A DNA stretch of 55,689 bases. It comes from Actinomycetota bacterium (lineage in GTDB: Bacteria; Actinomycetota; Acidimicrobiia; Acidimicrobiales; Ilumatobacteraceae). A program made the translations under genes and the position numbers. Within the stretch, counting starts at the first letter, position 1; each line of letters starts with the position of its first letter. The stretch is from NCBI GenBank assembly GCA_005787035.1, contig SYCI01000157.1:1-55689 (forward strand), read 5' to 3'. Shown here piece after piece: positions 2,086 to 11,721 of the stretch. Below the pieces are notes generated by a model. The model was not told where the DNA came from. It made no database searches and saw only the letters and a program-made list of their open reading frames with translations.

Positions 2086-3036
2086 ATGTCCGTCGGTTCC
2101 CGCCCCCTCGTTCCTTCGCGGCTCGCGCCGGGTGGAGTGTCGGCACACGGCCCGAGGCGGGCTCCCACGACGGTGATCGGCGGCTACATCGCCCTCACCA
2201 AACCGCGGATCATCGAACTCCTCCTCATCACCACCATCCCGACCATGGTTCTGGCCGAGAAGGGCTGGCCGAGTTGGGGGCTCGTTGTCGTCACCCTGCT
2301 CGGCGGGACCCTCGCCGCCGGCGGCGCCAATGCCATCAACATGGTGGTCGACCGTGACATCGACCAACTGATGGAGCGCACCAAGGGTCGACCTCTCGTG
2401 ACCGGTCTGATCGATCCTCGGTCGGCTCTGGTCTTCGCGTTGGCCCTGGAAGCGGCCGCTTTCGCTGTGCTCTGGGCCGGGGCCAACCTATTGGCCGCCG
2501 TCCTGGCCCTGTCGGCGACCCTCTTCTACGTCTTCGTGTACACCCTGTGGCTCAAGCGGACGAGCCGTCAGAACATCGTGATCGGGGGTGCGGCGGGGGC
2601 CGTTCCGGTTCTGGTGGGCTGGGCGGCGGTCCAGAATTCACTCGGTTGGGCGCCATTTGTCCTGTTCACGGCCATTTTTCTGTGGACCCCACCCCATTTT
2701 TGGGCCCTGGCCATCAAACACGCCGACGACTACCGGGCCGCCCAGGTCCCGATGCTCCCGACCGTCGTCCCGATGGCCCAGACGGTCCGCCACATGCTCG
2801 GGTACGCCGTGGCGCTGACCGCTTGCTCGCTTGTGCTCGGCCCGGTCGCCGATCTCGGTCCGCTGTACATGATCGTGGCCGGAGTTCTGGGTGTGCTCTT
2901 CGTTCTCGGCACCATCGATCTCGGTCGCCATCCCACCCCGGCTCGATCGATGCGTCTGTTCGGGTTCTCGATCTCGTACGTGACCCTTCTTTTCGGCGCG
3001 TTGGCCGCCGATGTGCTCATTCGACACGGCGTGTGA
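2086..3036 (+). CDS. ctaB: Protoheme IX farnesyltransferase (heme O synthase)
   Basis: The 316-residue polytopic membrane protein belongs to the UbiA superfamily. It farnesylates heme B to heme O, the precursor of the heme A used by aa3-type oxidases. The first Asp-rich loop ([20 protein letters not shown], around residue 85) is the prenyl diphosphate/Mg site, and the motif [20 protein letters not shown] is typical of CtaB/CyoE. ATG at 2086 gives the usual family length; the open frame extends far upstream but lacks homology there. It lies just before the oxidase cluster on the same strand, separated by 147 bases. Confidence 0.93.
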
Positions 3037-3183: not shown

Positions 3184-4797
3184 ATGACATCAATTGACAC
3201 CCACCACGCGGTCGACGGAGCGGCTTCACAGCCCGCCGTTGCCACGTGGCTGACATCGGCGGACCACAAGCACGTGGGTCGTCTCTTCATCGGTTCGGGA
3301 CTCGTCGGTCTGCTCGGTGGACTCGTCCTCGCGGTTCTCGTCGCCGTCGAACGAATCGATGCCGAAGGCTTCCAACTCCTCGATGAGAGCACGGCCTCCC
3401 AAGTGCTCGCCGCCGCCCGTCTCTTGCTCACCTACGGCGCAGTCGTGCCGCTCGTTCTCGGCATGGTCGTCGCCATCGTGCCGCTCCAACTCGGGGCACG
3501 CTCCATCTCCTTCCCGCGCCTCGCCGCCACGGGTTTCTGGTTCTGGCTCACTGGCCTCGGCCTCGCTGTGGCCTCCATCATCGGCAACGGTGGACCCGGT
3601 GGCGGAGAAGCCGAGATGGTCGATCTCTATCTCGCTGCGCTGGTGGTTCTCGCTCTCGGCGGTCTGATGGTCGCCGGATCCGTGGCGACCACTGCCCTCA
3701 CCGCACGGACCCCAGGTATGGGCCTTCTGCGCGCTCCGCTCTTCTCGTGGTCGTCGTTCGTCGGTTCGATCGCGCTCTTGCTGAGCCTGCCGGTCTTCAT
3801 CGGTACGAGCGTGTATCTCTACGTCGACCACCGTTACGCCCGCGCCGGCTTCGGCGGCAACATGGGCGTCAACCACTGGATCGGATGGTCGCTCTCACAG
3901 CCTTTCACCTACGTGCTCGCCATCCCGTTGCTCGGATTCGTTCTCGACGCGATCCCGGTGATGAATCGTTCGCGTCTTCCGCAGCGCGCGGCCGCCAACG
4001 TGGCGATCGGTCTCGTGGCGGTCGGACTCCTGACCGCAACCACGCAGTCGGCCGTCACGCTTCCGTGGGAAGGAGACGGGTTCTTCTCGGGCCTCGGCGA
4101 CAAGATCGCCGATCTCCTTCCGTTCGCTTTGCTGAACCTCGTTCCGCTCCTCGGTCTGCTCGGCGTGCTCGGCGGAGTGGCTCTCACGCTGAAGAGCGCC
4201 AAGCCTCGAGTTGCTTCGCCGCTCGTGTTCGCCGTGCTCGGCCTGCTGACGATCCTTCTCGGTGCAGCGTCGCACGTGGTGTATGCGATCCAGGACGCCG
4301 GACTCGCTGGAACGATCTTCGAAGCCGGCTCGTACGTCGCGGTCACGTTCGGATCTGTCACGTTGGCCTTCGGTGCCATCGCCTACTGGGGACCCAAGAT
4401 CTGGGGTCGCCGGGTGCCCGACAAAGCAGCGCTTCCGCTCGCACTGCTCGCCTTCGTCGCCACGGCCCTCGGTTCGCTTCCGTACATGATCGCCGGTTTC
4501 GCCGATCAGCCGGCGGGCGTGCTCGATGGCTTCTCGTACGGCGGCCCGCAAGAACTCTGGAACGCGCTCACCGCGATCGGGTTCGTGCTGATGCTCCTGG
4601 TGAGCCTCGCTTTCATCGGCCTGGTCGCGAAGTCGTTCACCGCGGGTGAGGCCGCTGGTGACGATCCGTGGGATGGCACGACTCTCGAGTGGGCAACGTC
4701 GTCGCCGCCTCCGGCCGACAACTTCTCCGAGGTGATCGTCGTCGGTTCGGAGTATCCGCTCGCAGACATGAAGAACTCGTCAGGGAAGGTCGGCTGA
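3184..4797 (+). CDS. Subunit I-like oxidase protein lacking all heme and copper ligands
   Basis: A 537-residue protein with about 12 hydrophobic segments that aligns along its length with cytochrome c oxidase subunit I. It keeps the N-terminal TSADHKHVGRLF, the loop LQLGARSISFPRL, the segment AYWGPKIWGRR and the C-terminal DPWDGTTLEWATSSPPP. The six metal-binding histidines are gone. The helix II heme ligand site reads TYGAVV, the GHPEVY site reads SQPFTY, the HH pair is absent, and the HFHY site reads AGSYV. Compare the canonical CtaD at 7860. It overlaps the next gene by one base (TGATG). It cannot be a normal oxidase core; a structural or assembly role is inference. Confidence 0.75.
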   Translation: MTSIDTHHAVDGAASQPAVATWLTSADHKHVGRLFIGSGLVGLLGGLVLAVLVAVERIDAEGFQLLDESTASQVLAAARLLLTYGAVVPLVLGMVVAIVPLQLGARSISFPRLAATGFWFWLTGLGLAVASIIGNGGPGGGEAEMVDLYLAALVVLALGGLMVAGSVATTALTARTPGMGLLRAPLFSWSSFVGSIALLLSLPVFIGTSVYLYVDHRYARAGFGGNMGVNHWIGWSLSQPFTYVLAIPLLGFVLDAIPVMNRSRLPQRAAANVAIGLVAVGLLTATTQSAVTLPWEGDGFFSGLGDKIADLLPFALLNLVPLLGLLGVLGGVALTLKSAKPRVASPLVFAVLGLLTILLGAASHVVYAIQDAGLAGTIFEAGSYVAVTFGSVTLAFGAIAYWGPKIWGRRVPDKAALPLALLAFVATALGSLPYMIAGFADQPAGVLDGFSYGGPQELWNALTAIGFVLMLLVSLAFIGLVAKSFTAGEAAGDDPWDGTTLEWATSSPPPADNFSEVIVVGSEYPLADMKNSSGKVG

Positions 4798-5396
4798 TGC
4801 TCGCATTGCCCCCCACTCCGCAGCCGGCGCCGAGGCGCCAGCTCTTCGTCGGCACTGCGCTCGCTTCGGCGGCCGGCACCATGCTCCTCGGCGGCATGTT
4901 GGCCGTGTGGCTGCAGTTCCGTGCCGACGCCCCGTATCGCGAATCATCGCGTCGTGGTCTGATCAAGGACTGGATGCCCGAGAAGATCGTGGTTCCCGAA
5001 GTCGCCGCCAACATGATGCTGATCGCGTTCTTCGTGGTCTGCATCATGGCCCAGTGGGCGGTGTGGTCGGCCAAGCGTGGCGATCGCACGCACACCGCCA
5101 TGGCGCTCGGCATGTCGGCTCTGATCGGACTCGCGGCGCTCAACTCACAGGTTTTCATCTGGACCCAGATGGGTGTGATCGCCCGCGACGGTGCGTTCCA
5201 CTCGATGTTCTACGCCCTGACCGGAACCTTCATGGCTCTCTTGGTGGCCGGAATCGTCTACACAGCAGTGGCGGCGTTCCGATACCTCGGACGCGGCACT
5301 TCCGACGTGCAGATCGTGTCGGCTCATGCCCTTTATTGGTACTTCCTCACCGCAGCCTTCTCGGCCCTGTGGTTCGTGGTCTACGTGCAGAAGTGA
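4797..5396 (+). CDS. Subunit III-like oxidase protein, divergent
   Basis: A 199-residue protein with five hydrophobic helices and the overall plan of cytochrome c oxidase subunit III. The segment FYALTGTFMALLVAGIV matches the place where the canonical CtaE at 9868 has FYTLTGFHGVHVTVGII, and LYWYFLTAAFSALWFVVY matches LYWHFVDIVWIVIF. The conserved histidines at both places are replaced. Its ATG overlaps the stop of the subunit I-like gene by one base, so the two are co-translated and probably form a complex. It is likely the partner of the ligand-free subunit I-like protein and not a second functional CtaE. Confidence 0.7.
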   Translation: MLALPPTPQPAPRRQLFVGTALASAAGTMLLGGMLAVWLQFRADAPYRESSRRGLIKDWMPEKIVVPEVAANMMLIAFFVVCIMAQWAVWSAKRGDRTHTAMALGMSALIGLAALNSQVFIWTQMGVIARDGAFHSMFYALTGTFMALLVAGIVYTAVAAFRYLGRGTSDVQIVSAHALYWYFLTAAFSALWFVVYVQK

Positions 5397-5409: not shown

Positions 5410-6552
5410 ATGATCACCACCAGCTCGAAACTCTTCTACGGACTCGGTGCCGGCTCGCTCGTCGCATCGATCGTCTGGTTCATCGCCAACGACGGCGGTT
5501 CGATCGGTTCGGTCGCACTGTTGTTCGCCGCGATGTCGCTCGTCTTCCTGGGCGCCATCGCCTCGTTCACACGTGACGGACACGTGCTGTCCACCGACAC
5601 CGCGTCGCACGCGTCCTCGGGCGCTGCGCAACGTGGGGTACGCAACAGCATTTGGCCACTCGGCACGGCGATCGCCATGGGCTTCGTCGTCGTGGGGCTC
5701 ATCAGTTCGCCCGGGATCTTCAAGGTCGGCATCGGACTCCTCATCGCCATGCTCGGCGAGTGGATGATTCAGAACTGGAGCGAGCGCGGTTCCAGCGACG
5801 CGGCATACAACACCAAGATTCGCGACTACGTCGTTCATCCTCTCGAACTTCCGGTTGGTGGGGCGCTCTTGCTGGCCGTCATCGTGCTGTCGTTCTCTCG
5901 CATCATGTTGTCGCTCTCGCATTCGGCCGGCCCGCTGGTGTTCGCCGTGGCCGGTGCGGTGATCCTCGCTTTCGGCACTCTCGTGGGCTTCCGTCGCTCC
6001 GTCAGCACGCGCGTGATCGGAGCGATTTGCGGCGTGGCTCTCACCGCGCTGGCTGGTGTTGGTGTGGCCACCGCACTCGATGGTGAGCGCCCCGAACTCA
6101 CCAAGGCGGCCGAGGAAGATCACTTTGCCCATCGCCCATGCGGTGAAGAAGAGGAAGAAGCCGACGAGAACGCATCGCAATCCGTGTCGGCCAAGAGCAG
6201 TGTGCAGGCCACGGTGATCCTCGAGGGCGGGATGCTCTACGCCGAGGTCGACGGTTTCGAAGGCGCTCAGCAATCGATCACGCTGCAGCGCTCCAACCCG
6301 AGCACGATCCTCTTCATCAACCGTGATGCCGAACCTCATCGGATGGTCGTGAAGTACGGCAAGGTCGTGGAGGATCTCGGTGGTGGAGTCGAGCGAGAGA
6401 CCGAGCTCGAGGCGTGCACCTCCAAGGTTGAACAGGACGGTCAGCAAGCCGTGACCCTTACGGTGCCGAAGCCTTCCTATGCCAGTGAAGAACCATTCGA
6501 GATCACGGTTCCTGGTGTGGAGGGAACCAAGATCGACCTGGTGGTGCCGTGA
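5410..6552 (+). CDS. CtaF-like membrane protein with periplasmic cupredoxin-like tail
   Basis: A 380-residue protein. The first 130 residues have four helices laid out like actinobacterial oxidase subunit IV (CtaF): two helices, a polar loop, then IWPLGTAIAMGFVVVGLIS and a helix ending GEWMIQNW. Three more helices follow. Then come a highly acidic linker (GEEEEEADE, near residue 240) and a beta-rich domain of about 120 residues containing EPHRMVV and EACTSK. The His and Cys recall a blue-copper site, but no second His or Met ligand is obvious. ATG at 5410 is chosen; the longer open frame lacks homology. The stop overlaps the next open frame. Function unknown. Confidence 0.6.
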   Translation: MITTSSKLFYGLGAGSLVASIVWFIANDGGSIGSVALLFAAMSLVFLGAIASFTRDGHVLSTDTASHASSGAAQRGVRNSIWPLGTAIAMGFVVVGLISSPGIFKVGIGLLIAMLGEWMIQNWSERGSSDAAYNTKIRDYVVHPLELPVGGALLLAVIVLSFSRIMLSLSHSAGPLVFAVAGAVILAFGTLVGFRRSVSTRVIGAICGVALTALAGVGVATALDGERPELTKAAEEDHFAHRPCGEEEEEADENASQSVSAKSSVQATVILEGGMLYAEVDGFEGAQQSITLQRSNPSTILFINRDAEPHRMVVKYGKVVEDLGGGVERETELEACTSKVEQDGQQAVTLTVPKPSYASEEPFEITVPGVEGTKIDLVVP

Positions 6553-6629
6553 GTCACCGTCACCCCTCTGGAGACGATCGAGCTGAGATGCCTACTTTTC
6601 ATTCACCCGACGAACGAGACGGAGTACCG

Positions 6630-7844
6630 ATGAACAAGTCGCCGCGCCGCCGCATCATGGCTGCCGTGGGCCTCATGGCCGGTCTGGTGTTCCTCGCCGG
6701 TTGCGCCAAGGACGCTCCGCAGGACACGTGGCAGCCCGCCGGTCCGAACGCGGAGCAGATCGACAACCTGCAGCAGCCGGTGTTCCTCGTGGCCGGCATC
6801 GTCGGCATCATCGTGTTCCTCGCCGTTGCGTTCGTCGTGATCCGCTATCGCGATCGTGGTCAGTCGATCCCCGAGCAAACCCATGGCAAGCCGGCTCTCG
6901 AGGTCACGCTCACCGTCATTCCGGTGCTCATCCTCATCGGCGTCGCCATTCCGACCGCGGGCACGATCTTCGATCTCGCCAAGACCGACGACACCGAGAT
7001 GGTCATCAACGTCACGGGTCAGCAGTGGTGGTGGGAATACGACTACCCGTCCACCGGAGCCAACGCCGAGTCGTACGGTGTGGTCGATCCGATCGTGACC
7101 TCTGGCCAATTGGTGATTCCCGAGAACACCAAGGTGCTGCTGCGCGTGACGAGCCGCGACGTCATCCACTCGTACTGGATCCCCAAGCTGAACGGAAAGA
7201 AAGACGGCGTCCCCGGCCGAGTGCACCTGCTCCGGCTCGAAGGCTCCAAGCCCGGTATCTATGCCGGACAGTGCACCGAGTTCTGCGGACTCTCGCATGC
7301 CTACATGCGCATGGAAACCGTCGTCCTGAACCGCGCCGACTTCGATGCATGGGTCGCGAATCAATTGAAGCCCTACGAGTCGCCGGCCGAAGGAACGCTG
7401 GCCGCCGAGGGCGAATCGCTCTTCATCCAGCAGTGCAGCCGCTGCCATCAGGTGAACGGACTGACCAATGCCGATGGGGCACCGATCATCGCGGCTCCCG
7501 AGCAATACATGGTCTCCGGAGCAGCACCCAATCTCACTCATCTCATGACCCGCAACACCTTCGCCGGCGCCGCTTGGGATCTCCTGACCCCGGAATGCCG
7601 CGACGACGTTTGGAACGCGAATACCGAGGAATTCGGTGCGAGGTATCTCGCCGGCGTCTCGGCCGAGTGCCTCAATCAGAAGGATCTGCGCGAGTGGTTG
7701 CGCAATGCCCCGGAGAAGAAGCCCATGTACGCCGACCCCACGAAGTTGCAGGCGACCGACGGCAAATACCGAGGAATGCCCGCGCTCGGACTCACCGAAG
7801 ACCAGATCGACGCACTGGTCGCCTACCTACTCGAGCGGAAGTAA
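6630..7844 (+). CDS. ctaC: Cytochrome c oxidase subunit II with fused cytochrome c (caa3 type)
   Basis: A 404-residue lipoprotein with lipobox LAGC (Cys25). Two membrane helices lie at about 50-75 and 85-110, followed by the cupredoxin domain. QQWWWEYDYP is the aromatic electron-entry patch. The CuA site is CTEFCGLSHAYM at 215-226, with an upstream His in DVIHSYW. A cytochrome c domain follows, with CSRCH at 269-273 and a distal Met in GMPALGLT. The heme domain is unusually long, with an insert holding two extra cysteines (TPECRDDVW and SAECLNQKD). The protein takes electrons from cytochrome c into CtaD. ATG at 6630 gives a clean signal peptide; an upstream in-frame ATG at 6588 does not. Confidence 0.93.
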   Translation: MNKSPRRRIMAAVGLMAGLVFLAGCAKDAPQDTWQPAGPNAEQIDNLQQPVFLVAGIVGIIVFLAVAFVVIRYRDRGQSIPEQTHGKPALEVTLTVIPVLILIGVAIPTAGTIFDLAKTDDTEMVINVTGQQWWWEYDYPSTGANAESYGVVDPIVTSGQLVIPENTKVLLRVTSRDVIHSYWIPKLNGKKDGVPGRVHLLRLEGSKPGIYAGQCTEFCGLSHAYMRMETVVLNRADFDAWVANQLKPYESPAEGTLAAEGESLFIQQCSRCHQVNGLTNADGAPIIAAPEQYMVSGAAPNLTHLMTRNTFAGAAWDLLTPECRDDVWNANTEEFGARYLAGVSAECLNQKDLREWLRNAPEKKPMYADPTKLQATDGKYRGMPALGLTEDQIDALVAYLLERK

Positions 7845-7859
7845 GAGGAGAACACCCAG

Positions 7860-9875
7860 ATGGCCATCATCGAACGTCCCTCGGCTGAAATCGCCGTTGC
7901 TGGCGCCGCACCCTCGGGTGTGAAGCCGAGCGAAGCTCTCGGCGTCTTCAAGCGCCCCGCCGCCTCCACGTCTTGGAAGGACTGGTTGGTCACGGTCGAT
8001 CACAAGAAGCTCGGCATCATGTACGGAGTTGCCGCGTTCTTCTTCTTCATCGTCGGTGGAGTGGAAGCGCTCCTCATCCGTCTCCAGTTGGCCGGTCCCG
8101 AGGGCAAGATCCTGAGCGCCGATCAGTACAACCAGATGTTCACGATGCACGCCACCACCATGGTGTTCCTCTTCGTGATGCCCATGGTTTCGGCGTTCGC
8201 CAACTACTTCGTTCCCCTCCAGATCGGAGCGCGCGACGTCGCCTTCCCGAGGATCAACGCGTTCGGATTCTGGTGTTGGCTGTTCGGAGGCATCTTCCTG
8301 AACACGTCGTGGTTCCTCGGCGGCGCGGCTGACGGTGGATGGTTCATGTACGCCCCCAACTCGTCGACATTGTTCTCGCCATCACACGGCATCGACTTCT
8401 GGGTGCTCGGTCTGCAGATCACCGGTATCGCCTCCTTGACCGGTGCGATCAACCTGATCGTGACCGTGCTCAACATGCGGGCGCCGGGTATGAAGCTCAT
8501 GCGCATGCCGATCTTCACCTGGATGACGCTCGTGGTGCAGTTCCTGCTCCTTTTCGCCATGCCGGTCATCACGGTGGCGCTCTTCCTTCTTTCGTTCCAG
8601 CGCTCGTTCGATGCAACGTTCTTCGATGTGGCAGCCGGAGCCGACCCGCTCCTCTGGCAGCACTTGTGCTGGATCTTCGGTCACCCCGAGGTGTACATAC
8701 TCATCCTGCCGTCGTTCGGCATCGTCTCGGAGATCATCCCGGTGTTCTCCAAGAAGCCGCTCTTCGGTTACCCGATCGTGGCCATGTCGGGTGCGGCCAT
8801 CGGATTCGTCGGATGGGGTGTGTGGGCGCACCACATGTTCGCCTCCGGCCTCGGACCGGTGTCGGTGGCTGTCTTCTCGATGGCCACCATGGCCATTGCG
8901 GTTCCGACCGGCGTCAAGATCGTCAACTGGATCATGACCATGTGGGGCGGCAAGCTCAGTTTCACGGTGCCGATGCTCTTCGCCATCGGTCTCGTGGTGC
9001 AGTTCACGATCGGTGGTCTCTCCGGCGTGACCCACTCGGTCGCTCCGAGCGACACTCAGCAGACCGACACCTACTACATCGTGGCGCACTTCCACTACGT
9101 GTTGTTCGGTGGCGCGATCTTCGGTCTCTTCGCCGGTTTCTACTACTGGTGGCCCAAGATCTTCCGCAAGCAGTTGAGTGAGAGCCTCGGAAAGTGGAAC
9201 TTCTGGTTGATGGTCATCGGCATGAACATGACCTTCGGCCCGATGCACATCCTCGGTCTGCAGGGGCAGCCCCGTCGTATGCAGGTCTGGACCGAGGCCC
9301 GCGCCGGAGAGGGATTCTTCAACATCGGATTCTGGAACCGCATCGCGTCGCTCGGCTCGTTCATCTTGGCGGTCGGAGTCCTGCTGTTCATCATCAACAT
9401 CATCTACACGCACAAGTCGAAGAAAGTCGCCATCGCCCCGCTCGACCCGTGGGACGCCCGCTCTCTCGAGTGGATGACCGCCAACCCGCCCGTGGAACAC
9501 AACTTCGATTCCATTCCGACCGTCAACAACCTGGACGAGTTCTTCCACCGGAAGTACGCCGAGGACCCGAACACCCACGAGGTGCGTCAGGTGGCTACCG
9601 CCGAAGAAGTTCTGGCCGAACTCAACGCCCACCCCGACGAGCACATCCACATGCCGTCGCGGTCGTACTGGCCGATCCTCGTGTCGCTGTCGTTGCCGAT
9701 CATCTGTTACGGACTCATCTACAACCGTCTGTTGATGGGTGTCGGCGCGGCCTTCTTGCTGCTCACCATGTTCGGCTGGGCGATGGAGCCCTCCACGGCC
9801 CCCGATGACGATTTCGATCCGCCGGCACCCGGTGAAGGTGGCGGTCACACGAAGGAGCTGGCTCCCCTTGGCTGA
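7860..9875 (+). CDS. ctaD: Cytochrome c oxidase subunit I
   Basis: The catalytic oxidase subunit, which reduces oxygen to water and pumps protons. All ligands are present: heme a His near residue 97 (MHATTM), CuB/Tyr motif GHPEVYILILP, HHMFASG, and heme ligands in AHFHYVLF. The D-channel Asp is seen in ARDVAFPR and the Glu in HPEVY. At 671 residues it is about 100 longer than usual. The extra part follows DPWDARSLEWMTANPP and includes two more hydrophobic helices (ending LLLTMFGWAMEPS) and a polar tail. An AGAGGAG-type ribosome binding site sits about 10 bases before the ATG. The stop overlaps the start of ctaE by 8 bases. Confidence 0.96.
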   Translation: MAIIERPSAEIAVAGAAPSGVKPSEALGVFKRPAASTSWKDWLVTVDHKKLGIMYGVAAFFFFIVGGVEALLIRLQLAGPEGKILSADQYNQMFTMHATTMVFLFVMPMVSAFANYFVPLQIGARDVAFPRINAFGFWCWLFGGIFLNTSWFLGGAADGGWFMYAPNSSTLFSPSHGIDFWVLGLQITGIASLTGAINLIVTVLNMRAPGMKLMRMPIFTWMTLVVQFLLLFAMPVITVALFLLSFQRSFDATFFDVAAGADPLLWQHLCWIFGHPEVYILILPSFGIVSEIIPVFSKKPLFGYPIVAMSGAAIGFVGWGVWAHHMFASGLGPVSVAVFSMATMAIAVPTGVKIVNWIMTMWGGKLSFTVPMLFAIGLVVQFTIGGLSGVTHSVAPSDTQQTDTYYIVAHFHYVLFGGAIFGLFAGFYYWWPKIFRKQLSESLGKWNFWLMVIGMNMTFGPMHILGLQGQPRRMQVWTEARAGEGFFNIGFWNRIASLGSFILAVGVLLFIINIIYTHKSKKVAIAPLDPWDARSLEWMTANPPVEHNFDSIPTVNNLDEFFHRKYAEDPNTHEVRQVATAEEVLAELNAHPDEHIHMPSRSYWPILVSLSLPIICYGLIYNRLLMGVGAAFLLLTMFGWAMEPSTAPDDDFDPPAPGEGGGHTKELAPLG

Positions 9876-10476
9876 CACCGCTCTCGCGCACGGCGCCGAT
9901 CACGGCGCTCCCCACACCACGACCGGCTTGTCGAACAACAAGCTCGGTATGTGGATCTTCCTCGGATCCGAGTGTCTGCTGTTCGGTGGGTTGATCTCCA
10001 CCTACATGCTCTACAAGGGTCGTGTCTCGGCCGGTCCGCAGCCCGATCAGATCTACGACATCCCGTTCACCTCGGTGAGTTCGTTCGTGCTCCTCATGAG
10101 CTCGCTCACCATGGTGCTCGCGGTGTCGGCTGCGCATCGTCGCGACGATCGCAACACGAACTTGTGGCTCACCGTGACGGCGCTCCTCGGTGCGACCTTC
10201 GTGGGTGGCCAGGTGTACGAGTTCACCGCCTTCTACCGCGAAGGCCTGGGCTTCACCACGAGCCTCTTCGGCTCGAGCTTCTACACCCTCACCGGTTTCC
10301 ACGGAGTCCACGTGACCGTCGGCATCATCATGTTGATGGCCCTCGTGGGCATGGTTCGCCGGAACCGCATTCCGGGTAGCAAAGCCGAGACGGTCGAGTT
10401 GATCGGCCTCTACTGGCACTTCGTCGACATCGTGTGGATCGTGATCTTCACCCTCGTCTATCTGATTCCCTCCTGA
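9868..10476 (+). CDS. ctaE: Cytochrome c oxidase subunit III
   Basis: A 202-residue protein with five membrane helices. Conserved features include GMWIFLGSECLLFGG, FYTLTGFHGVHVTVG and LYWHFVDIVWI. Subunit III stabilises subunit I and supports proton uptake. The start is TTG at 9868: no ATG occurs before the conserved N-terminal helix, and AAGGAG at 9852-9857 lies 10 bases upstream inside ctaD. The resulting N-terminus is MADTALAHGADHG. No qcrCAB genes follow, unlike the common actinobacterial ctaE-qcrCAB order. Confidence 0.93.
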   Translation: MADTALAHGADHGAPHTTTGLSNNKLGMWIFLGSECLLFGGLISTYMLYKGRVSAGPQPDQIYDIPFTSVSSFVLLMSSLTMVLAVSAAHRRDDRNTNLWLTVTALLGATFVGGQVYEFTAFYREGLGFTTSLFGSSFYTLTGFHGVHVTVGIIMLMALVGMVRRNRIPGSKAETVELIGLYWHFVDIVWIVIFTLVYLIPS

Positions 10477-10492
10477 CGCCTAAGGACATCTC

Positions 10493-10825
10493 ATGAGCAC
10501 CGTCACCGAACACGCCGGCCACACCGATCACTCGCATGACGAGTCACACGGTGCGTCCGACAAGCAGTACGTGGTCATCGCGCTCATCCTCGCGGCCCTC
10601 ACCGCGATCGAGGTCTCCACGTACTACGTCGACTTCGGCCCGCTCTTCATGCCGACGCTCTTCGTGCTGATGGCCGTGAAGTTCGTGATCGTCGTCTCGT
10701 ACTTCATGCACCTCAAGTTCGACAACAAGCTCTTCAGTTACCTCTTCTATACGGGCCTGATCCTCGCCATTGCCGTGTATTGCGGCGCTCTGGCGACGTT
10801 CAAGTTCTTCTTGCAGAAGGGCTGA
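10493..10825 (+). CDS. Cytochrome c oxidase subunit IV (bacterial COX4 type)
   Basis: A 110-residue protein with a His-rich polar N-terminus (EHAGHTDHSHDESHG) followed by three hydrophobic helices, including VKFVIVVSYFMHLKFD, a signature of the small prokaryotic subunit IV. It sits 16 bases after ctaE and 2 bases before ctaG in the same operon. It is an accessory membrane subunit of the oxidase. Confidence 0.85.
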   Translation: MSTVTEHAGHTDHSHDESHGASDKQYVVIALILAALTAIEVSTYYVDFGPLFMPTLFVLMAVKFVIVVSYFMHLKFDNKLFSYLFYTGLILAIAVYCGALATFKFFLQKG

Positions 10826-10827
10826 TC

Positions 10828-11721
10828 ATGTTGGCGGCCGATCTGGCCGAGCCGTGGCGGTTCCAGGCCCACATCGAGGTCTGGCTGCTCGTGACCTTCC
10901 TCGTGGCGTCGTACGTCTACATGGTGCGCGTCCTCGGACCCCGCGCGGTCGGTCCGGATGGGGTGGTGGTGACGGGCCGCCAGAAGCTCGCGTTCGTGGC
11001 CGGTATCGCCGTGCTGTGGTTCGCATCCGACTGGCCGATGCACGACATCGCCGAGGAATATCTCTACTCGGTACACATGTTCCAGCACATGGCTCTGACG
11101 TACTTCATGCCGCCGCTCGTGGTGCTGGCCACCCCCGAATGGTTCGCCCGAACGCTGGTGGGTAATGGTGGTTTCTACCGGTTCATGAAATTCATGGCCC
11201 ATCCGGTGCGGGCGGCGTTCTTGTTCAACGTCGCGGTGATGGTGAGCCACGTACCCGGTGTGGTCAATGCCTCCGTCTCCAACGGCCCTCTTCACTACGG
11301 CATCCACGTGTTCTTGGTGTCGAGCGCGATCCTGATGTGGTTGCCGGTGTGTGGACCATTCAAGGAATTCCACATCGGCTACATGGGGCAGATGATCTAT
11401 CTGTTCATGAACAGTGTGGTGGCCACGGTTCCAGCCGGCTGGCTCACCTTCGCCGAAGGTGTGGTGTACAAGCACTACAACATCCCGTGGCGGGTGTGGG
11501 GAATCTCGGTCACCGACGACCAACAGATCGCCGGTGCGATCATGAAGATCGGCGGCGCCGCGTTCTTGTGGGCGATCATCATCGTTTTGTTCATCAACAA
11601 GTTCGTGAAGACGTTCCGGGCCGAGAACGAGGGCGGGTACGTGCGCAAACCCCTCACCATGGCCGATGTCGAGAAGGCCTTCGAGGAGAGCGAGCCCATT
11701 CGCGAGTCGGAGCGTCGCTAG
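10828..11721 (+). CDS. ctaG: Cytochrome c oxidase assembly factor CtaG (caa3 type)
   Basis: A 297-residue polytopic membrane protein of the caa3_CtaG family. It has about seven hydrophobic helices, with conserved histidines in WPMHDIAEEYLYSVHMFQHM. Members assist assembly of caa3 oxidase, probably at the copper insertion stage. It is the last oxidase gene of the operon, starting 2 bases after subunit IV. The C-terminal tail (about 50 residues) is charged and cytoplasmic. Confidence 0.88.
   Translation: MLAADLAEPWRFQAHIEVWLLVTFLVASYVYMVRVLGPRAVGPDGVVVTGRQKLAFVAGIAVLWFASDWPMHDIAEEYLYSVHMFQHMALTYFMPPLVVLATPEWFARTLVGNGGFYRFMKFMAHPVRAAFLFNVAVMVSHVPGVVNASVSNGPLHYGIHVFLVSSAILMWLPVCGPFKEFHIGYMGQMIYLFMNSVVATVPAGWLTFAEGVVYKHYNIPWRVWGISVTDDQQIAGAIMKIGGAAFLWAIIIVLFINKFVKTFRAENEGGYVRKPLTMADVEKAFEESEPIRESERR

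Follow-up and report, generated by a model that had tools for sequence, protein, structure and literature searches.

A subunit I homolog without heme and copper ligands leads a three-gene module beside the caa3 oxidase operon of Acidimicrobiales

The window, the whole 55,689-nt stretch to which coordinates refer unless another locus is named, carries on its forward strand the gene order ctaB, I'-III'-IV' and then the caa3 operon ctaC-D-E-F-G. The first gene (2119–3036, start codon approximate) encodes a UbiA-family prenyltransferase (PF01040, E = 1.6e-64) and is read, from this similarity, as ctaB. It precedes I' on the same strand, and the initial annotation, which placed I' at the head of the oxidase cluster, was incorrect on this point. 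I' (3184–4797) is a subunit I homolog without heme and copper ligands, as judged from its PF00115 match, the ligand read-out and a structure model. It overlaps by one base (TGATG) with III' (4797–5396), as had been reported, and III' is a degenerate subunit III homolog in which the canonical CtaE motifs are replaced. IV' (5410–6552) is a membrane protein that, from a sub-cut-off profile match and its orthologs, has weak similarity to subunit IV (CtaF) and ends in a β-domain (6202–6543), which is cupredoxin-like in the strands of a low-confidence model. The active caa3 oxidase follows, with ctaC for subunit II with a cytochrome c domain (6549–7844; PF00116, E = 2.9e-23; PF00034, E = 1.7e-10; start candidates GTG at 6549 or ATG at 6627), ctaD for a canonical subunit I (7860–9875; TIGR02891, E = 8e-205, above the cut-off), ctaE for subunit III (9925–10476, start approximate; PF00510, E = 7.5e-19), ctaF for subunit IV (10493–10825; PF03626, E = 4.7e-12), and ctaG for the caa3 assembly factor (10822–11721; PF09678, E = 8.2e-41). 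The CtaD of the window has a C-terminal extension with a weak, sub-cut-off PF12270 match (residues 586–645, E = 2.9e-5), and this subunit IV-like extension coexists with the separate downstream ctaF.

The I' frame starts with ATG and encodes 537 residues with zero internal stops, and the gene is thus undamaged, as first described. The protein passed the cut-off of PF00115 (COX1) with 113.9 bits against 34.8 (E = 1.1e-32, residues 31–466), and stayed below the NCBIfam CtaD cut-offs (188 bits against 670.75 for TIGR02891, 168 against 880 for NF050116). It is 27% identical to the CtaD of the same operon over 549 columns, and the motif DDPWDGTTLEWATSSPPP is present at its C-terminus as noted before. 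The alignment of COX1 homologs placed A78 and V385 at the positions of the low-spin heme His residues, S383 at that of the heme a3 His, Q239 at that of a CuB His, and Q288 and S289 at those of the CuB His pair. His is therefore found at none of the six ligand positions in I', whereas the window CtaD at 7860 has it at all six. The proposal that every metal-binding His is replaced was borne out by the alignment with CtaD families, in which conserved His residues were not found at the ligand positions of I'. One detail changed: TYGAVV had been paired with MHATTM, but AARLLL stands opposite and TYGAVV lies ~6 residues downstream, while the loss of the ligand holds.

An AF2 model of I', built from a 21-row alignment, contained 12 long helices (pLDDT 77.8, pTM 0.85), and its top Foldseek match was the mycobacterial bc1:aa3 subunit I (9gy6_F, E = 1.3e-23, TMq 0.84). 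The COX1 fold is thus predicted to be kept by I', and the description as a full-length subunit I homolog, with its 12 predicted helices, agrees with these data. Compared with the actinobacterial aa3 CtaD of mycobacterial and corynebacterial bcc-aa3 (9gy6_F, 7q21_D, 6hwh), I' is alike in predicted fold, length, the 12 helices, cytoplasmic motifs and PF00115 membership, but differs in having no ligands for heme a, heme a3 or CuB and no D- and K-channel residues. Across 66 I' sequences (at least 480 aa, near-duplicates removed, so that truncated entries, L081 and L149 among them, are excluded), the channel residues D107, N114 and K328 were retained in 0% and E241 in 5%. Judged by its sequence, I' has the COX1 fold but falls short of an oxygen reductase on each catalytic criterion examined.

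To locate what has been retained, 163 positions conserved to at least 90% in 30 sister aa3 CtaDs were scored over the 66 I' sequences. The N-terminus of CtaD lies inside, and the membrane sides of I' were assigned from the model helices with its N-terminus likewise taken as inside. On average, retention was 63% for the 40 positions in cytoplasmic loops and termini, 34% for the 107 helix positions and 25% for the 16 positions in outer loops, and a difference by side of this size was reached in 0 of 10,000 permutations. Helices 7 and 8 showed the lowest values (18% and 16%). I' is, on this pattern of conservation, a protein whose cytoplasmic platform is retained and whose metal-holding core is lost, and the retained cytoplasmic motifs may just mirror the needs of folding. 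The core has been rebuilt, with Gln frequent at two former CuB positions (41 and 49 of the 66 sequences), which would suit a separate transporter or ion channel, with a pathway through the vacated oxidase fold for protons or some other ion, a lipid or a quinone. Such a role is improbable, since the gene stays with caa3 and the residues of the known D and K channels have been lost. A canonical proton channel is disfavoured by the same loss of channel residues. Among the non-catalytic roles listed in the initial annotation, a scaffold or complex partner is thus retained as the best reading, and a canonical ion channel is not.

The two genes downstream of I' resemble the remaining subunits of the same enzyme. 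III' matched the actinobacterial aa3 CtaE model NF050119 with E = 3.8e-9 (37 bits, cut-off 190) and PF00510 with E = 0.0016 (18.8 bits, cut-off 23.8); the PF00510 cut-off was passed by III' of the early-branching loci L071 (53.3 bits) and L076 (31.2 bits) and missed by that of L080 (19.8 bits). IV' matched PF12270, the actinobacterial subunit IV family, with E = 0.0029 (18.1 bits, cut-off 26.9). The tie of IV' to this family is indirect, because the N-terminus of early IV' matches a canonical subunit IV (L126) at 1.3e-4, which itself matches PF12270 at 7.9e-8. Foldseek placed the C-terminal β-domain of the window IV' with cupredoxins (E = 3e-4) on a poor model (pLDDT 55.2, pTM 0.35), which was used for this match alone, and a motif scan detected no C..H..M blue-copper motif in this tail. 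The order I'-III'-IV' mirrors the D-E-F order of the aa3 operon. From these similarities, the three genes look like one module, a shadow of the D, E and F subunits of an aa3 oxidase. The initial annotation considered one gene; its ligand loss stands, whereas the unit is a three-subunit module whose early members have some ligands.

Selection was estimated by the Nei–Gojobori method in 28 pairs from eight loci, all of them from close relatives of the window; medians omit pairs with dS of at least 1.5 or undefined (5 to 7 of 28 per gene). The dN/dS of I' was 0.031–0.089 in five close pairs, with a median of 0.208 and a maximum of 0.262 (21 of 28 pairs). The medians of III' and IV' were 0.200 (22 pairs) and 0.241 (21 pairs), and those of the caa3 genes were 0.126 for ctaC (21 pairs), 0.094 for ctaD (23 pairs), 0.064 for ctaE (22 pairs), and 0.179 each for ctaF and ctaG (21 pairs each). 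The constraint on I' is weaker than that on CtaD (0.208 against 0.094), yet by this measure I' is clearly under purifying selection. A pseudogene or frameshift reading was rejected, with dN/dS not exceeding 0.262 in the usable pairs, an intact frame and intact orthologs. The loss of ligands and channels is also what a decaying, functionless copy would present, but such a copy is very improbable in view of the intact frames in 66 relatives of at least 480 aa, the low dN/dS, the conserved synteny and the predicted stable fold. The ortholog search suggested by the initial annotation yielded these 66 distinct relatives, and the dN/dS check gave values well below 1. The proposed selection for a non-catalytic role accords with the many syntenic orthologs, the low dN/dS, the absent ligands and the fold that is predicted to be kept.

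The 66 distinct I' sequences formed one clade with a support of 1.0 in a 189-sequence tree from which the ligand columns had been omitted. The number of His residues at the six positions was none in 44, one in 14, two in six and three in two; no sequence had the full catalytic set, and none of the 66 combines the His of heme a3 with the three of CuB. Both low-spin heme His residues were kept in four sequences. Three of these are early branches: L071 has lost the a3 His, whereas L076 and L080 keep it and have Arg and Ala-Gly at CuB sites. The fourth, L041, lies within the main clade. Even the early members are without the Asp and Asn of the D channel and the Lys of the K channel. The blue-copper motif is intact in IV' of L071, L076 and L080 (Cupredoxin_1, E = 1.6e-11 to 3.9e-9), and these are the only three of 97 loci scanned in which the motif was found, some of the loci being cut at the end or repeating a genome. 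In the window lineage the β-domain is retained without the copper motif, and many other clades are without the domain. Since the early members hold heme a ligands and the blue-copper motif on IV', the loss of cofactors was stepwise. As reconstructed from these sequences, loss began with the channels and CuB and ended with heme a, and some losses occurred more than once, since L071 is without the a3 His still present in L076 and L080. In the early members the module probably carried electrons too, from the blue copper on IV' to the heme a of I'; this use would have been lost later while the scaffold stayed. The low-spin His pair of L071, L076, L080 and L041, together with the blue-copper motif in the first three, also bears on the proposal that the module remains an electron carrier, with a cofactor bound in some new manner. 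This is quite improbable, as no His remains at the six sites in 44 of 66 sequences and the window IV' is without the C..H..M motif.

A profile from 11 orthologs was searched against 296 genomes of the class, and loci with the module or caa3 were retrieved for 62 Acidimicrobiales genomes; draft and metagenome assemblies make up most of the survey. Of the 62 genomes, 60 show I', and the contig ends before the I' site in the other two (G095, G229). The full set of ctaB, I', III', IV', ctaC, ctaD and ctaE was present in 51 of 62, and contig ends cut 10 of the remaining 11. In the sole uncut exception among the 62 (G157, locus L163), ctaB was not seen within 2.4 kb upstream. Wherever the contig was long enough, the module genes accompany caa3 in the genomes surveyed from the order. 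When 43 further genomes were tested with CtaD, all eight order members with a caa3-type match proved to be already among the 62, and the remainder had other CtaD types only or no match (G161); in this test, second COX1 copies in order genomes without caa3 were read for ligands only in part. Neither I' nor III' was found in any of 15 caa3 operons read outside the order, of which 13 are informative, as the contig ends at ctaC in L098 and L103. In a search of 396 genomes of the phylum, I' matches above 260 bits were confined to the order. Six lower-scoring matches were read as candidates for I' outside the order and rejected, all being canonical. This search, run at E = 1e-70, also misses diverged I' within the order (G079, G087), and diverged copies could likewise exist elsewhere.

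Of 68 loci, 59 have a start codon that fits ATGA or TGATG coupling between I' and III', and 27 of 61 have one between IV' and ctaC; short loci are omitted from these counts, and a few genomes enter them twice. In the earliest-branching member (L071, 6360–10583, minus strand), IV' and ctaC are separated by genes that resemble, by eye, a metal ABC transporter, and by others. A thioredoxin-like gene occupies this place in L076 (5639–6229, plus strand; Pfam match) and L080 (~7055–7801, minus strand; similarity by eye), and possibly serves the assembly of the CtaC copper site.

The main rival to a role of the module as a partner of caa3 is that I'-III'-IV' acts as a transient membrane chaperone for nascent CtaC or CtaD during heme A and copper insertion and is absent from the finished enzyme. 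The position of the module after ctaB in an operon that ends with ctaG would fit this proposal, as would the thioredoxin-like gene of L076 and L080 and the copper motif on early IV', and a review states that gene duplication can yield biosynthesis factors (PMC9145763). However, a set of subunits I, III and IV is large for a chaperone, the window lineage is without the copper motif, and the block is absent from same-class caa3 operons outside the order (the 13 of 15 whose upstream region is visible). We therefore regard an assembly platform as unlikely.

In the 189-sequence tree, I' grouped with 30 aa3-type CtaDs (node support 0.93), away from the neighbouring CtaD, and a reduced IQ-TREE run with 43 sequences placed L087, L085, L010 and L126 as the nearest canonical sequences. 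A recent duplication of the neighbouring CtaD is not favoured by this grouping, though an AU test on the 43 sequences did not reject a grouping of I' with caa3 (p = 0.195). As far as the trees indicate, an actinobacterial aa3 oxidase is a more probable source of the module than the neighbouring CtaD; this is a preference rather than a result, because the AU test does not reject a caa3 origin. In three loci (L087, 7144–8343, minus strand; L126, 362–1432, plus strand; L010, 6798–7952, plus strand), the aa3-type CtaC has a C-terminally fused blue-copper cupredoxin with intact ligands in place of a cytochrome c domain. These cupredoxin-CtaC oxidases are like the I' module in subunit I sequence and in their cupredoxin, which matches the early IV' tails, but their subunit I has all six His residues and their cupredoxin is on CtaC, not on subunit IV. 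The comparison suggests that the ancestor was a cupredoxin-aa3 oxidase, from which CtaC was lost while the cupredoxin was kept on IV'.

A second family without ligands came from the same class outside the order. In L102 (8093–10237, minus strand), a 715-residue protein encoded upstream of ctaC combines an intact cupredoxin with a ligandless CcoN-like domain and a membrane part of the IV' type. Used as a query at a threshold of 1e-15, this protein had matches in 79 of the 296 genomes of the class, a few via the cupredoxin alone. The CcoN His residues, located by canonical motifs from alignments, were absent in the 19 further loci read from the 79 matched genomes (L212–L230), and in L216 and L217 TGA stops lie inside the matched CcoN-like stretch. 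In five neighbourhoods (L231, L232, L233, L237, L245), FixO and cytochrome c domains are either part of the CcoN-like protein or encoded after it; the family scan left out the fetched loci L236, L239–L244 and L246. A cytochrome b stands close to the CcoN-like gene in G022, G239, G117 and G007, and a Rieske protein in G022. In G006, complex I and cytochrome c assembly genes stood there instead, and in the neighbourhood of G259 neither cytochrome b nor these genes were seen. The CcoN-like proteins resemble I' in being heme-copper oxidase subunit I homologs without metal ligands, with a setting near cytochrome b genes or, in L102, near caa3; they differ in their similarity to the C family (cbb3) and in the FixO and cytochrome c domains fused to or following them in the five neighbourhoods other than L102. 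By homology and gene neighbourhood, this looks like an independent loss of ligands in another oxidase family with a partly similar genomic setting.

Taken together, we lean towards the reading that the I'-III'-IV' module descends from a heme-copper oxidase, has been retired from catalysis and persists, free of cofactors, as a structural partner of caa3 and perhaps also of complex III. This reading is based on the position of the module upstream of ctaC throughout the order (I' in 60 of 62), the purifying selection and possible junction coupling, the predicted retention of the fold with stepwise ligand loss in one clade, the cytoplasmic face as the best retained part (63% against 34% and 25%), and the second ligandless family near complex III genes or caa3. 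Against it stand the higher dN/dS of I' than of CtaD, the IV'-ctaC coupling that is possible in less than half of the loci, the genes that intervene in L071, and the absence of ctaB within 2.4 kb in G157. I', III' and IV' would assemble into one membrane complex, which would bind the active caa3, and perhaps complex III, at ~1:1 and stabilise or position caa3. CydB of cytochrome bd, a member of a protein family unrelated to I', offers an analogy for this role. According to a study on C. glutamicum cytochrome bd, CydB is a structural subunit without cofactors that is paired with the catalytic subunit (PMC9846854), and the module may act on caa3 as the cofactor-free CydB does on CydA.

A partnership with an actinobacterial bcc complex or alternative complex III found no simple link, as QcrC (NF050122) and NrfD (PF03916) gave no match at 1e-5 in the own-genus genomes G000 (77.5% complete), G071, G275 and G281. 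A b6-type cytochrome b occurs in all four of these genomes, and the copy in G000 and G071 lies beside a ferredoxin-like ORF.

No description of a ligandless subunit I was found in a full-text literature search with most subscription papers outside its scope, which is weak evidence of absence. Subunit I is usually defined by its hemes and CuB, and here a family sheds both in visible steps under selection. With the I' family, one can study what the scaffold contributes by itself; the family also forms a natural series from a redox complex to a structural one. Annotation pipelines may label I' proteins as cytochrome c oxidase subunit I, and we would expect oxidases to be overcounted in Acidimicrobiia as a result. 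More tentatively, and with some doubt, we propose that cofactor-free heme-copper oxidase subunits form a recurrent class of respiratory scaffold. In Acidimicrobiales, subunits I, III and IV of an aa3 oxidase would have become the inert half of a super-assembly with caa3. In other Acidimicrobiia, the CcoN of a cbb3 oxidase would have been emptied independently, to serve as a membrane anchor for cytochrome c or cupredoxin carriers placed between complex III and caa3.
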